A stretch of DNA of 64,000 nucleotides from Rahnella variigena (lineage in GTDB: Bacteria > Pseudomonadota > Gammaproteobacteria > Enterobacterales > Enterobacteriaceae): the NCBI RefSeq assembly GCF_003610915.1, contig NZ_NSDJ01000001.1, positions 1,426,001 to 1,490,000 on the forward strand. The letters are read 5' to 3'. Below the pieces are notes generated by a model. The model saw only the letters and a list, made by a program, of their open reading frames with translations, was not told the DNA's origin and searched no databases. Shown one piece after another: positions 10,151-60,079 of this stretch. The position numbers and the translations under genes were made by a program. How positions within the stretch are numbered: position 1 is the first letter of the stretch; each line of letters opens with the position of its first letter.

Positions 10151-10192
10151 TCGCCCTTAAGCGGGCACAGTAAGAAGTTTTACTGATAACCA

Positions 10193-10224
10193 GCACGGGC
10201 GTCGAGGAAACTCTACGCCCGTGC
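10193..10224 (+). promoter_or_regulatory. Intergenic hairpin between dnaK and dnaJ
   Basis: A perfect 10-bp stem (GCACGGGCGT at 10193-10202 with ACGCCCGTGC at 10215-10224). After one C-T mismatch three more pairs close on a GAAA tetraloop. There is no T-run, so it is not a normal terminator. The E. coli dnaK-dnaJ spacer holds a similar GCACGGGCG hairpin as I recall. It probably stabilises or processes the mRNA and sets the dnaK:dnaJ ratio. Confidence 0.75.
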
Positions 10225-10249
10225 ACGCATGTTGAGGGTAGGTTAAAGC

Positions 10250-11383
10250 ATGGCGAAGCAAGATTATTACGAGATTTTAGGCGTATCCAAAACAGCGGAT
10301 GAGCGTGAAATCAAAAAGGCTTATAAGCGCCTGGCAATGAAACATCACCCTGACCGCAATCAGGGCGATAAAGAGTCCGAAAGTAGGTTTAAAGAAATTA
10401 AAGAAGCTTATGAAATCCTGACCGATGCGCAAAAACGTGCGGCCTACGACCAGTACGGTCATGCAGCCTTTGAACAAGGTGGCATGGGCGGTGGCGGCGG
10501 TTACGGCGGCGGCGGTGCAGATTTCAGCGACATCTTTGGTGACGTCTTTGGCGACATCTTTGGCGGCGGTCGCCGTCAGCGTGCCAGCCGGGGTTCTGAT
10601 CTGCGTTACAACATGGATCTGACTCTGGAAGAGGCCGTTCGTGGTGTCACCAAAGAAATCCGCATCCCGACACTGGATGAATGTGACGTCTGCCACGGCA
10701 GCGGCGCGAAAGCGGGCAGCTCTCCGGCCACCTGTCCGACCTGTCATGGTGCAGGCCAGGTTCAGATGCGTCAGGGCTTCTTCACTGTCCAGCAGGCGTG
10801 TCCGACCTGTCAGGGCCGCGGTAAAGTGATTAAAGATCCGTGCAACAAATGTCACGGTCATGGTCGCGTAGAGCGCTCTAAAACGCTGTCAGTGAAAATT
10901 CCTGCGGGTGTCGATACCGGCGACCGTATTCGTCTGGAAGGTGAAGGCGAAGCGGGCGAGCACGGTGCTCCGTCAGGCGATCTGTACGTTCAGGTTCAGG
11001 TTAAAGCGCACAAAATCTTTGAGCGTGAAGGTAATAACCTGTACTGCGAAGTGCCAATCAACTTTGCCATGGCTGCACTGGGTGGCGAAATTGAAGTGCC
11101 AACGCTGGATGGCCGCGTGAGTCTGAAGATCCCTGCCGAAACGCAAACGGGCAAAATGTTCCGTATGCGCGGACGCGGTGTGAAATCTGTCCGTGGTGGT
11201 GCTCAGGGCGACCTGATGTGCCGTGTGGTCGTTGAAACGCCGGTCAGCCTGAGCGAGAAGCAGAAGCAATTGCTGCGTGATCTGGAAGAAAGCTTTGGTG
11301 GCGTATCGGGTGAAAAAAACAGCCCGCGTTCTAAAAGCTTCCTGGATGGCGTGAAAAAGTTCTTTGACGATCTGACCCGCTAA
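10250..11383 (+). CDS. dnaJ: Co-chaperone DnaJ (Hsp40, type I)
   Basis: 377 residues. J domain at 1-70 with the HPD motif in [10 protein letters not shown]; Gly/Phe-rich stretch at about 75-110 ([16 protein letters not shown]); four zinc-binding CxxCxGxG repeats ([32 protein letters not shown]); C-terminal substrate-binding domains. It delivers clients to DnaK and stimulates its ATPase. It follows dnaK by 99 bp and is closed by a strong terminator. Confidence 0.99.
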
Positions 11384-57192: not shown

Positions 57193-58786
57193 GGCGGCCT
57201 GGTAATTTCTCAATCAGGGTGAATAACAGGAAGCATAACAGCAGCAATAACAGCGCCGTCACCGCGCCGTCCTGGCTGCGATAGGAGCCGATCTGCTGAT
57301 ACAGATAAAACGGCAGGGTGCGGAAGTTCTCATTGCCAAATAAGGCGATCATGCCGAAATCCCCCAGCGACAGCACGCAGGCAAACGCCAGCGCCTGCGC
57401 AATCGGGCGCTTCAGTGCGCTCAGTTCCACCCAGCGCAGGCGCTGCCAGCCGTGCATATCCAGTGAAAGGCACAGCGGCGTGTAACGTTCGGCCACGTCG
57501 CGCATCGGGTTATCCAGCACTTTTAGCGCATAAGGCACCGCCATCAGCGCATTGGTCATGATCACCAGCGGCCATGGCGATTGCGGCATACCTGTCGTAT
57601 CGCCAAGGAGCAGGAAAAAACCGGTCGCCAGCACAATGCCCGGCATCGCGAGGATCAGCATACCGCTGAGATCCATCGCCTGCGCCCAGCCATTTCTCTG
57701 GCGTAATCGCAGTTCGCGACTGCTCCACAACAGCATCATGGTGAGCAGGACACACACTATCCCGCTGCCCAGGGCGATACGCACGGATGTCCATAATGCC
57801 TGCCACAGTGCGGGTTGTTGTAAAACACCGACTGCTGCACGGTTGATACCGTCAGTAATCACAGCGAGTAATGGTGGCAGGATCAGCATTAACGCCAGGC
57901 CGACCAGCACGGTATCTGCGATGCGCCTCAGCCAGGAATCGTCCGGGTTACGCCAGCGCTGAGAATGCGTTTGTCCGACCGGCAACGCCTGACTGAGTTT
58001 CTGGCTGAGCAAGACCAGCGCCAGACAACAAAACAGCTGGATCAGCGCCAGCGTGGCGGCGCGGCTTAAATCGTAGTCGTAACTTAACGCCTGAAAAATC
58101 GCCAGTTCAATGGTGGTCGCCTGCGGGCCGCCGCCCAGCGACAGCACGGTGGCGAAGCTGGCGAAGCACAACATAAAAATCAACGCGGCGGCGGGGAAAA
58201 TCTGCCGGCGAATGGCAGGCCATTCAACAAAGCGAAATTGCTGCCAGGCGTTCATCCCAAGCTGCGCAGCCAGCTGACGCTGTTCGACGGCGATATTTTC
58301 CAGCGCCTGCAATAAGAGTCGGGCTGCCAGTGGCAGATTAAAAAACACATGAGCCAGTAAAATGCCCTGTAAACCATAAGGCGAGAAACGGTAATCCACG
58401 CCCAGCCAGCCGCAAATCTGCGCCAGCCAGCCCTGCCGTCCATAGACGCTGAGAATGCCGAAGACTGCCACCAGAACCGGCAATACCAGCGTCATCGCGC
58501 ATAAGCGTAGTAACAGCTGACGTCCGGGGAAGCGGCGGCGGAACAGCGCACGGGCCAGCAGAATGGCGGGCAGCACAGAACAGAGCGCCGAAAGCAGCGC
58601 CTGCCAGAAGGTAAAGCGGATCACATGCCAGAGATAAGGATCCTGCCACAGCGAGGCGCCGCTCATCTGTGGCGCATGACGCCACAGAGAGCCTAACGCC
58701 AGCATAGCCACCAGCAACATCAGCAGCGAGGCGATGGCGCCCGGCCACAACCAGCGAGGGATCAACGGCTGACGGCGTTCTGCCAT
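57176..58786 (-). CDS. thiP: Thiamine ABC transporter, permease
   Basis: 536 residues, about 12 membrane segments in two repeated permease halves (as in FbpB-type iron permeases). EAA-type loops: [20 protein letters not shown] and [21 protein letters not shown]. Start [16 protein letters not shown] at 58786 fits E. coli; the frame is open to 58798. It overlaps thiB by 25 bases and thiQ by 17. Confidence 0.97.
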
Positions 58787-59745
58787 GCCTGGATCCATTG
58801 TGAACGGTGAGTGGCGACATCCTGTGCGCTGTATTGCAGGGACTTAGCCGGTACCGTCAGCTGTTTAAAGGCGTCAGGCAGCGGGGTGTTGATCACCGGA
58901 TACATCCAGTTGCCGGCCGGGATCACTTTCTGGAAATCTTCCGTAGTGATGAATTTCATAAATGCTTCAGCCAGTTCAGGTTGCTTGCTGTTCGCCAGCT
59001 GACCCGCCACTTCGACCTGCATGTAATGACCTTCGGTGAAATCCGCCGCCGCGTAGTTATCTTTCTTTTCTTCGACGATGTGATACGCCGGAGATGTGGT
59101 ATAGCTCAGCACCAGATCGCTCTCGCCTTTGAGGAATAAACCGTAAGCCTCGCTCCAGCCTTTGGTGACGGTAACGGTTTTCTTCGCCAGTTTTTCCCAT
59201 GCTTGCGGTGCTTTGTCGCCATAGACTTTTTGCATCCACAACATCAGGCCCAGACCCGGTGTACTGGTGCGCGGATCTTCGTAAATGACTTTCCATTTCT
59301 GGTCGCTGTTGATCAGCTCATCGAGGCTTTTTGGCGGGTTCTTCAGTTTGTTTTTGTCATACACGAACGCGAAATAGCCGTAATCGTAAGGCACGAACGT
59401 GGTGTTGTCCCAGCCGCCTGGTACGGTCAGTCTGGCATCGGTTTTCGGCGCTTTGGCAAATAATCCGGTTTGTTCGGCCGCCTGCAACAGGTTGTTATCC
59501 AGCCCGAGAACCACGTCGGCTTTGCTGTTTTTGCCTTCCATCCGCAGACGGTTAAGCAAAGAGACACCGTCTTCCAGCGCAACGTATTTCAGTTCGCAAC
59601 CGCACCGGGCTTCAAAAGCTTTTTTAATCGCCGGGCCAGGACCCCAGTCGGCAGAGAAAGAATCGTAGGTATAAACCGTCAGAACAGGTTTTGCAGCCAG
59701 TGCAGGGGCAGAAAGTAACAGCAGGCAGGACAATAATTTTTTCAA
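58762..59745 (-). CDS. thiB: Thiamine/TPP-binding periplasmic protein
   Basis: 327 residues. Signal peptide MKKLLSCLLLLSAPALA, then KPVLTVYTYDSFSADWGPGPA; DVVLGLDNNLL, YEDPRTSTPGLGLMLWMQKV and SYTTSPAYHIVEEKK bind thiamine. It captures thiamine, TMP and TPP in the periplasm. The start is UUG at 59745, seven bases after GGAG; the frame extends into the riboswitch (59805), but that part must be untranslated. First gene of thiBPQ. Confidence 0.97.
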   Translation of the reverse strand: MKKLLSCLLLLSAPALAAKPVLTVYTYDSFSADWGPGPAIKKAFEARCGCELKYVALEDGVSLLNRLRMEGKNSKADVVLGLDNNLLQAAEQTGLFAKAPKTDARLTVPGGWDNTTFVPYDYGYFAFVYDKNKLKNPPKSLDELINSDQKWKVIYEDPRTSTPGLGLMLWMQKVYGDKAPQAWEKLAKKTVTVTKGWSEAYGLFLKGESDLVLSYTTSPAYHIVEEKKDNYAAADFTEGHYMQVEVAGQLANSKQPELAEAFMKFITTEDFQKVIPAGNWMYPVINTPLPDAFKQLTVPAKSLQYSAQDVATHRSQWIQAWQNAVSR

Positions 59746-59799
59746 CTTTGCGCTCCAAAAAAATGAAAGGGCAAAGGATTTTGAGTAAGCATCGCGCAG

Positions 59800-60035
59800 T
59801 CTCAAATCCCTCCGCCGGGGTTAACCGGATCAGGTTCGACGGGTCTAAATCTCAGCCTTTTAAACTTGCTGTGCGTGTGTTGATCGGGCGTCGTACAGTG
59901 CTCGAAATGCTCACGTACTTTGTGTACGCTCCGCTTTCTGTACGCTGGACTTCACCCGCTGAACACGCGCTCGCGGCGTTTAAAGATCGAGTTCATTCTT
60001 CTTGAAAAAGAACGCACTTTGGCACCCCGTTGAGA
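59800..60035 (-). ncRNA. TPP (THI-box) riboswitch with an enlarged P3 arm
   Basis: On the minus strand the order is TCTCAA (P1), CGGGGTGCC, the P3 arm, GGCTGAGA, ACCC, GAACCTGATCCGGTTA, GGAGGGA and TTGAGA (P1 closing). These are the conserved TPP-aptamer elements. The two core parts lie 163 bases apart (59858-60020), whereas the P3 loop is usually some 10-30 bases. The insert starts and ends with pairing GTGCGT / ACGCAC, so the P3 helix is simply extended. It controls thiBPQ by TPP, probably at translation since no T-run was seen. Confidence 0.93.
59858..60020 (-). repeat. Palindromic insertion element in the riboswitch P3 arm
   Basis: The insert folds on itself: 59877-59881 with 59962-59966 (GTGTT / AACAC), 59885-59888 with 59955-59958 (CGGG / CCCG), and 59892-59898 with 59938-59944 (CGTACAG / CTGTACG), all coaxial, topped by a smaller CGTAC / GTACG hairpin. 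Such a roughly 90-nt imperfect palindrome is typical of short mobile repeats (REP/MITE-like) of Enterobacterales; identity is inferred. Confidence 0.75.
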
Positions 60036-60079
60036 ACGGATGTCATTCTAGAGACTAACGGCGCGATGCGATAGTCCGA

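Follow-up and report, generated by a model that had tools for sequence, protein, structure and literature searches.

The window analysed here, a stretch of 64,000 nt from Rahnella variigena (assembly GCF_003610915.1, contig NZ_NSDJ01000001.1, positions 1,426,001 to 1,490,000), carries on its minus strand the gene thiB (58762..59745), which starts with TTG and encodes the substrate-binding protein of the thiamine ABC transporter. The protein is 94-98% identical in 13 congeners, and the order sgrR-thiB is as annotated in K. pneumoniae. Upstream of thiB, on the same strand, lies a complete TPP (THI) riboswitch aptamer, extending from P1 to P1 over 59800..60035 and including a long insert in P3. 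Its 5' half (60021..60035) comprises the P1 5' strand TCTCAA (60035-60030) and GGGGTGCC (60028-60021), with the GGGG of P2 and the GCC that opens P3. The 3' half (59800..59857) comprises the P3 3' strand GGC (59857-59855), which continues into CTGAGA (59855-59850) and then into ACCC and P4/P5, together with the P3a loop, the CCC of P2, GAACCTGATCCGG and the P1 3' strand TTGAGA (59805-59800). All conserved elements had been assigned to the minus strand in a preliminary description of this DNA, at coordinates that proved exact, and the 19 pairs placed in P1, P2, P3, P4 and P5 are all standard. The core features of the Rfam family RF00059 (GGGGTGC, CTGAGA, ACCC, GAACCTGA, P4/P5 and P1) are present, all helices can form, and the position is upstream of a thiamine gene.

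Directly before P1, the hexamer TAGAAT (60045..60050, minus strand) is, from the comparison of leaders, the probable -10 element of a promoter, from which transcription is predicted to begin a few nt downstream of 60045; its counterpart in several other genera is TACAAT. On the other side, GGATTTGAG and CTCAAAATCC form a probable anti-P1 hairpin (59776..59809, minus strand), the putative expression platform, whose role is suggested by analogy with E. coli tbpA (PMC11487190); CTCAAAATCC recurs in Ewingella-type and Klebsiella-type leaders. It is followed by a probable Shine-Dalgarno sequestering hairpin (59746..59776, minus strand), in which CTTTGC and GCAAAG would pair around GGAG (59756-59753), and CCTTTGC and GCAAAG were found again in other compared thiB leaders. 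Together, the anti-P1 stem and this hairpin would probably match the arrangement of E. coli tbpA (= thiB).

No match to RF00059 at the gathering score (54.3 bits) was obtained anywhere in the 64-kb window. In E-value mode the model returned a partial match of 37.8 bits (E 4.4e-6) over 59790-59885, in which the tail of the insert was misread as the 5' half of the aptamer. The gathering score is a detection threshold and not a structural feature, and the window falls below it because the insert splits the aptamer and the model cannot bridge it. Among the thiB leaders of 14 Rahnella genomes, the three with a P3 of 47 nt reached 58.3, 60.8 and 63.8 bits, and the 11 with a long P3 scored 37.8-46.0 bits. 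The recognition by RF00059 that the preliminary description had looked to was thus obtained as a partial match in the window and in full for the short-P3 orthologues, but not at the gathering score for the window itself. The insert was absent from all 30 non-thiB TPP riboswitch matches in the 14 Rahnella, which are of ordinary length (one of them scores 46.5, below the cut-off, yet spans 100 nt), and from the 31 above-cut-off non-thiB matches in 13 other genomes, where two further TPP matches of 19 bits were taken as noise.

The P3 arm of the window is 169 nt long, of which about 165 nt are inserted, and the insert is made of two parts. The first is P3b (59985-60020, minus strand), a small and fast-changing hairpin between the P3 5' strand and the second part, with 14 of its 36 columns varying in nine Rahnella; by eye, an inverted repeat is also present at this position in an Ewingella leader (L055). 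The second is a palindromic repeat element of 126 nt (59859-59984, minus strand), here referred to as family R1 (model match of 135.8 bits, G000:C1:1485859-1485984), which folds into one long imperfect hairpin within P3. An insertion into the length-tolerant P3 arm had been proposed before, and this holds. However, of the 163 nt then taken as a palindromic repeat, 126 nt are repeat and the remainder is not, and the long hairpin, then estimated at about 90 nt, exists but spans about 126 nt. The pairing GTGCGT/ACGCAC that was thought to close the ends is absent from the best fold, in which GTGCGTTCTT makes a small hairpin of its own and the partner of the ACGCAC side is GCGTGTT in the opposite arm of the element; in the alignment of nine Rahnella, judged by eye, the two strands do not covary.

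The predicted fold of the insert (-58.3 kcal/mol) was better than those of all 200 dinucleotide shuffles (-40.6 +/- 3.9 kcal/mol; z -4.5). Forcing the 17 aptamer pairs raised the energy above the unconstrained minimum by 5.2-13.4 kcal/mol in 15 long-P3 leaders (mean 8.6) and by 2.3-10.3 kcal/mol in seven short-P3 leaders (mean 7.4), with only 10 pairs instead of 17 forced in L031. In long and short leaders alike the unconstrained minimum-energy fold differs from the aptamer fold, which counts against the explanation preferred below. The element hairpin is identical in both folds of the window, free and aptamer-forced; since the costs are similar and the hairpin is the same, the insert is expected to behave as an autonomous folding module.

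The R1 covariance model was built on an alignment (A1) of 13 copies, 12 from thiB P3 leaders and one dispersed, the window's own copy being included, and the structure and covariation counts derive from this one set of 13 sequences. RNAalifold placed 32 pairs on A1, of which 15 were changed on both sides. None of 500 shuffles reached the observed 94.6% of paired cells, the 15 two-sided pairs, the 49 two-sided cells or the covariation score of 0.36, and slid structures dropped to 22-39% paired; a fifth covariation measure, further pair types, was equalled by 23 of the 500 shuffles and counts against. As a palindrome kept as DNA would give an equal signal, this covariation speaks for a maintained palindrome and not necessarily for an RNA function. 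The outer arms are paired, imperfectly, in A1, corresponding to the terminal inverted repeats expected of a MITE.

A search of the window's genome with this model gave eight matches at E < 0.001, the insert and seven more copies, which bears out the earlier proposal of a dispersed palindromic repeat with relatives elsewhere; of three weaker matches, two resemble ERIC by eye. Copies at E <= 0.001 were found in 28 of 59 genomes (the window's included), among them all 14 Rahnella. A blastn comparison with the insert region gave matches in 5375 of 5426 complete E. coli genomes, at a median of 4 places and covering about 32% of the query among the matches listed; two of these places, at qseG-qseE and pyrH-frr, were examined and gave 70.8 and 76.3 bits. 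The RSA repeats of E. coli are about 152 bp long and occur in few copies, and the copy number and intergenic position of R1's E. coli relatives would fit them, on a comparison by description only.

Three published repeat families were rejected as the identity of the insert by alignment to sequences from PMC2759123. ERIC (RU-1, 127 bp), like R1 a dispersed enterobacterial palindromic repeat of similar size, scored 22 against a shuffled maximum of 27 (200 shuffles); YPAL (RU-2), a repeat of about 168 bp from Yersinia that is likewise palindromic and whose reported targets span or adjoin dyad symmetry (PMC2229807) but which has no sequence similarity to the insert, scored 17 against 25 with its published 168-nt sequence; and RU-3 scored 16 against 23. 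A match to RF02228 (sX9) opposite the repeat (window 59913-59989, plus strand; 17.5 of 44 bits) was attributed to chance or palindrome similarity. In Y. aleksiciae the same family, a Xanthomonas sRNA, scores 44.6 against a gathering score of 44 (L095, 2306-2233, minus strand), probably a false annotation of the palindrome. Four sequence strings of the R1 repeat were not found in the openly licensed literature searched.

The long P3 form occurs in 11 of the 14 Rahnella genomes, two of these (L022 and L052) with a 148-nt form, and the 47-nt P3 is found in R. bruchi, R. inusitata and one more. The short P3s retain TAAACGCCG and GCAAGTTT, and since these are pieces of the element's two ends, the short forms look like internal deletions. 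The direct repeats (A)GCAAG that distinguish L022/L052 from the short forms lie within the element arms and were read as deletion end points. The alternative reading of (A)GCAAG in the 148-nt and 47-nt forms, a target duplication left by a recent insertion, is the less likely one: a tandem unit in Erwinia rhapontici (L094) shows TAAAACGC..GCGAGC and GCAGCACGTT to be the element's own ends.

Beyond Rahnella, P3 contains this element in the same orientation in Ewingella, in Hafnia psychrotolerans (whose ThiB, 91% identical to the window's, branches inside the Rahnella fork in the ThiB tree), in six of ten Yersinia leaders, in E. rhapontici and in the genomes G033, G162 and G207. The P3 element of Y. 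similis was matched weakly (58.5 bits), and in E. persicina (L103) a remnant was recognized by eye where the model lists none. Tandem copies also occur: L094 has two by reading, in 288 nt, where the model lists one, and the leader of G207 (L352, 796-1276) has four R1 copies in one P3 of 528 nt, with the core present. This spread, together with the distance of the P3 copies from most dispersed ones described below, speaks against a landing that is recent or confined to Rahnella.

In a tree of 103 copies, a branch with support 100/99 sets 25 P3 and nine other copies apart from 69 dispersed ones, so that the P3 copies are separate from 69 of the 78 dispersed copies. Mean identity of the window copy is 77% for two P3 copies of Erwinia type, 67% for five P3 copies from Yersinia and 57% for the seven dispersed copies of its own genome. 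Against this, the best dispersed copies are 69-70% identical to it, equal to the closest P3 copy from Yersinia (70%). In the best element tree the P3 copies do not form a single clade, and the P3 label needs 4 changes (8 with core columns only), but a single P3 clade was not rejected in either case (p-AU 0.20 and 0.28). On a quick ThiB tree (97 rows) no fewer than 10 changes of the insert state are required, a minimum that drops to 7 when scars are scored as presence; this counts against a single origin. In view of the tree changes and the close dispersed copies, there is room for several insertions of one subfamily or for cross-genus transfer of the leader. On these sequence comparisons we favour, at roughly two to one, a single old entry of R1 followed by losses, perhaps with cross-genus transfer, over repeated landing.

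Repeated landing is a rival reading that we regard as possible, on the weaker side. It holds that P3 (and P3a) is a hot or permissive site and that a shared subfamily supplied the R1 copies of Rahnella/Ewingella, of Yersinia and of Erwinia in separate insertions. The state changes on the ThiB tree, at least seven, point in this direction, as do the thiB leaders that carry ERIC, a family different from R1. On the other hand, the R1 copies in P3 cluster together against the bulk of the dispersed ones, and in Rahnella, Yersinia and Erwinia they share their outer arms, their orientation and a right-hand boundary at the P3 3' strand. Some dispersed copies have inverted repeats in their flanks, which would favour separate landings: 76 dispersed copies, reduced to 32 loci by shared flanks, have a mean flank stem of 4.9 bp, where mismatched flanks give 4.0 bp (none of 5000 permutations reached the observed mean), and inverted repeats of at least 8 bp are present at 4 of the 32 loci versus 0.9% of mismatched flanks. 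However, as this excess comes from few loci and partly from longer elements whose ends were clipped by the model, hairpin targeting is unsupported as a rule of the family.

The extent to which thiB leaders have hosted repeats was assessed in 177 thiB upstream regions, 97 with their ThiB in the tree and 80 further chosen, which are not a random sample. A strict pattern parsed 161 of them, giving 144 distinct leaders. Inserts of 90 nt or longer are present in 33 of these, the P3 of 108 is shorter than 60 nt, and three are intermediate. The 33 consist of 26 with R1 (each with a model match), four with ERIC in P3, two with ERIC in P3a and one other. R1 was matched in none of the 16 unparsed leaders; by looser patterns 12 of these have a P3 of 10-25 nt, and the remaining four (L120, L300, L311 and L318) are without a complete aptamer. 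The latter, from E. aphidicola and three other genomes, thus have no complete thiB riboswitch upstream of thiB, and in L300 only the riboswitch 3' end is left, behind unrelated sequence.

ERIC in P3 belongs to the K. pneumoniae group and relatives, with full-length copies in L291 and L312 and eroded ones in L332 and L338, and ERIC in P3a to leaders of the Serratia type (L289, and L123 from Serratia sp. PL17). Alignment to the published ERIC consensus gave scores of 117-125 for the four full copies and 50 and 43 for the eroded ones, against shuffled maxima of 23-26. The P3 insert of L291 has 15-42 matches in each of five genomes, and two K. pneumoniae records with sgrR-thiB match the L312 leader at 98% identity. 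ERIC-like remnants that are shorter still, in L315, L324, L335 and L349, scored within the shuffled maxima and were left uncounted, and the 105-nt P3 insert of L319 was not accepted as a dispersed repeat, having only one match in its genome. Full-length ERIC within the thiB aptamer was also noted in L354 (P3) and L355 (P3a), and in the Serratia-type P3a copies a TATA-type junction suggests a TA duplication. Because ERIC, a different family, sits in P3 and P3a of other thiB leaders, more than one landing in the thiB leader must have occurred, and palindromic repeats have thus entered P3/P3a of this riboswitch on more than one occasion.

Conservation was evaluated in nine long-form Rahnella, the eleven without the two that have a 148-nt P3. 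Mean identity was 95.8% for the element, 82.5% for P3b and 68.0% for fourfold sites of thiB. The element exceeded the fourfold sites in 36 of 36 pairs, but so did P3b, and therefore part of the conservation of the element is the slow change of the whole leader. Within the leader, the element is less variable than the adjoining P3b (0.825) and the P3a loop (0.722). Orthologous dispersed copies at three other sites, however, have identities of 0.91-0.99 between Rahnella species (10 comparisons), compared with 0.89-0.98 for P3 copies (4 comparisons). As the dispersed copies are about equally conserved, it is apparently the repeat family that is under constraint, which is no proof of a role specific to the riboswitch.

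These values bear on two further readings, both of which we consider rather improbable. According to the first, the insert is neutral filler without effect or selection, tolerated since the tip of P3 is free. The absence of the full element from three of the 14 Rahnella agrees with this, as do orthologous leaders with the same core and a P3 of anything from 10 to 528 nt; the identity of the element relative to the fourfold sites, its lower variation than P3b and the P3a loop, and paired changes that keep the fold (15 of 32 pairs compensatory) argue against it. The preliminary description had allowed for a neutral insert, and pure neutrality is disfavoured by 95.8% against 68%, although the dispersed copies are about as conserved. 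According to the second, exaptation has turned the hairpin into a functional module by which the switch is tuned, for example through folding speed, RNase access or transcript stability; a possible change of folding speed and ligand response had been raised in the preliminary description too. In addition to the conservation in nine Rahnella, this could draw on E. coli tbpA, described as sensing TPP more efficiently during transcription, with transcription rate of importance (PMC11487190), and on K. pneumoniae thiC, where single nucleotides of an extended P3 are reported to alter the response to pyrithiamine (PMC12632268). The loss of the element in some species and the similar conservation of dispersed copies at three other sites weigh on the other side. 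A bolder combination, in which P3/P3a of thiB would be a recurrent dock for at least two unrelated repeat families and R1 would, by exaptation, have become a structural module under selection within a composite riboswitch in Rahnella, Ewingella, Yersinia and Erwinia, the tandem copies in the 528-nt P3 being the extreme, is likewise doubtful.

The integrity of the core was compared between inserted and short leaders. The parser itself demanded GGGGNGN after A-A/T-C, CTGAGA and GAACCTG, and counts of these motifs are for that reason not independent evidence of the core. GGCGNAGGGATTTGAG, which was not required, is present in 33 of 33 inserted versus 102 of 108 short leaders, ACCCGT(C/A) ahead of GAACCTG in 32 of 33 versus 106 of 108, and GAACCTGA(T/A)CCGG, partly required, in 31 of 33 versus 108 of 108. 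Across the nine Rahnella of long form, every column of the 5' core and of GGCTGAGA is invariant, and 3 of 43 columns vary in the 3' core. Every leader with a repeat-model match in P3 retains a complete core, in agreement with the earlier view of an insertion that did not destroy it. That the repeat ruined the aptamer and left a non-functional riboswitch, as the RF00059 score under the cut-off might suggest, is very improbable given the invariant 5' core and GGCTGAGA, the retention of GGCGNAGGGATTTGAG in every inserted leader, and the conserved probable promoter, anti-P1 stem and SD hairpin.

We therefore consider the locus a TPP riboswitch of thiB that is of the usual working type, with an old, inherited copy of a dispersed repeat and a small extra hairpin in its P3, an explanation to which we give a probability of about three in four. 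The leaders now seen in Rahnella, Ewingella, Yersinia and Erwinia would have had an ancestor or donor in which the repeat came into P3; later it would have been deleted in some species and tandemly multiplied in others. Its RNA is predicted to fold by itself as one long hairpin soon after synthesis of the P3 5' strand, and this hairpin would join the two aptamer halves over a distance of about 165 nt. Neither the ligand pocket (P2, CTGAGA, P4/P5) nor the anti-P1/SD switch would differ from those of E. coli thiB (tbpA), presumably with the ligand response that goes with them. During transcription, the 5' strands of P1 and P2 would have to wait for about 165 additional nt. Since the insert precedes P4/P5, the interval from completion of the aptamer to formation of anti-P1 would not be lengthened; in E. 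coli tbpA, where TPP sensing takes place during transcription, the sensing window is expected to close with the anti-P1 stem (PMC11487190).

The thiB/tbpA riboswitch of E. coli shares with that of Rahnella the core motifs, P1-P5, the gene and, as far as can be inferred, anti-P1 formation and SD sequestration (PMC11487190). It differs from the Rahnella leader, with its 169-nt P3 of P3b and repeat and its Rfam score below the cut-off; most sampled thiB leaders have a P3 of less than 60 nt (108 of 144). Long P3 arms have been described in fungal TPP riboswitches, averaging about 150 nt and reaching 172 nt, and RF00059 often fails on those with a P3 above about 60 nt; these switches are, however, eukaryotic, and in the account given by PMC11683625 their P3 is not linked to a named repeat family. 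Among bacteria, the thiC riboswitch of K. pneumoniae likewise has an extended P3, but of 24 nt and, in what PMC12632268 presents on it, without a demonstrated dispersed repeat; Table 1 of that paper lists no K. pneumoniae thiB switch. P3a has been described as an optional helix of the TPP aptamer (PMC2258182), and in a 2024 review the formation of riboswitches by MITEs is treated as merely conceivable (PMC10969869). Among the matches listed in the openly licensed literature, as titles and starts of abstracts, there was no report of ERIC or another dispersed repeat within a TPP aptamer.

The Rahnella leader thus contains a real TPP riboswitch whose P3 is extended by an old repeat, and thiB leaders have accommodated repeats of this sort on more than one occasion. 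A metabolite-sensing RNA has here kept its core while a peripheral arm more than once took up whole mobile-type repeats, including ERIC in thiB of the K. pneumoniae group. The natural pairs of long and short P3 within one genus offer material for testing arm length and folding time in a cotranscriptional switch. For annotation it is relevant that repeat-bearing switches tend to miss the Rfam cut-off, as do 11 of 14 Rahnella thiB leaders and 11 of 13 in genomes chosen for inserts; the cut-off is still passed by two Yersinia leaders of the insert-chosen set and by Y. aleksiciae. The sole Rfam match at gathering score in the window is the tpke11 sRNA (RF02031, 70.5 bits) at 10181-10251 on the plus strand.

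Several minor observations concern the repeat family itself. In three Yersinia P3 copies (L071, L075 and, by reading, L107) about 16 extra nt are present at the tip of the repeat hairpin, which are missing in Y. aleksiciae. Dispersed copies occupy apparently the same operon-internal spacers in several genera (L139, L160 and L191; L172, L204 and L220), which from their flanks we take to be dnaN-recF and nuoL-nuoM, respectively, and because of this sharing single R1 positions seem to persist across genera. In one genome (G017), near-identical relatives of the repeat are found at several places (L168, L206, L207 and L208), possibly copies in rRNA spacers; the sequence downstream of them reads like what is presumably the start of 23S rRNA. 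Finally, a distant relative of the repeat occurs in another family of the order (L236-L241, genome G048), with 21 matches and longer terminal inverted repeats (AGAAGCCATCTCAAAAAT in several copies).
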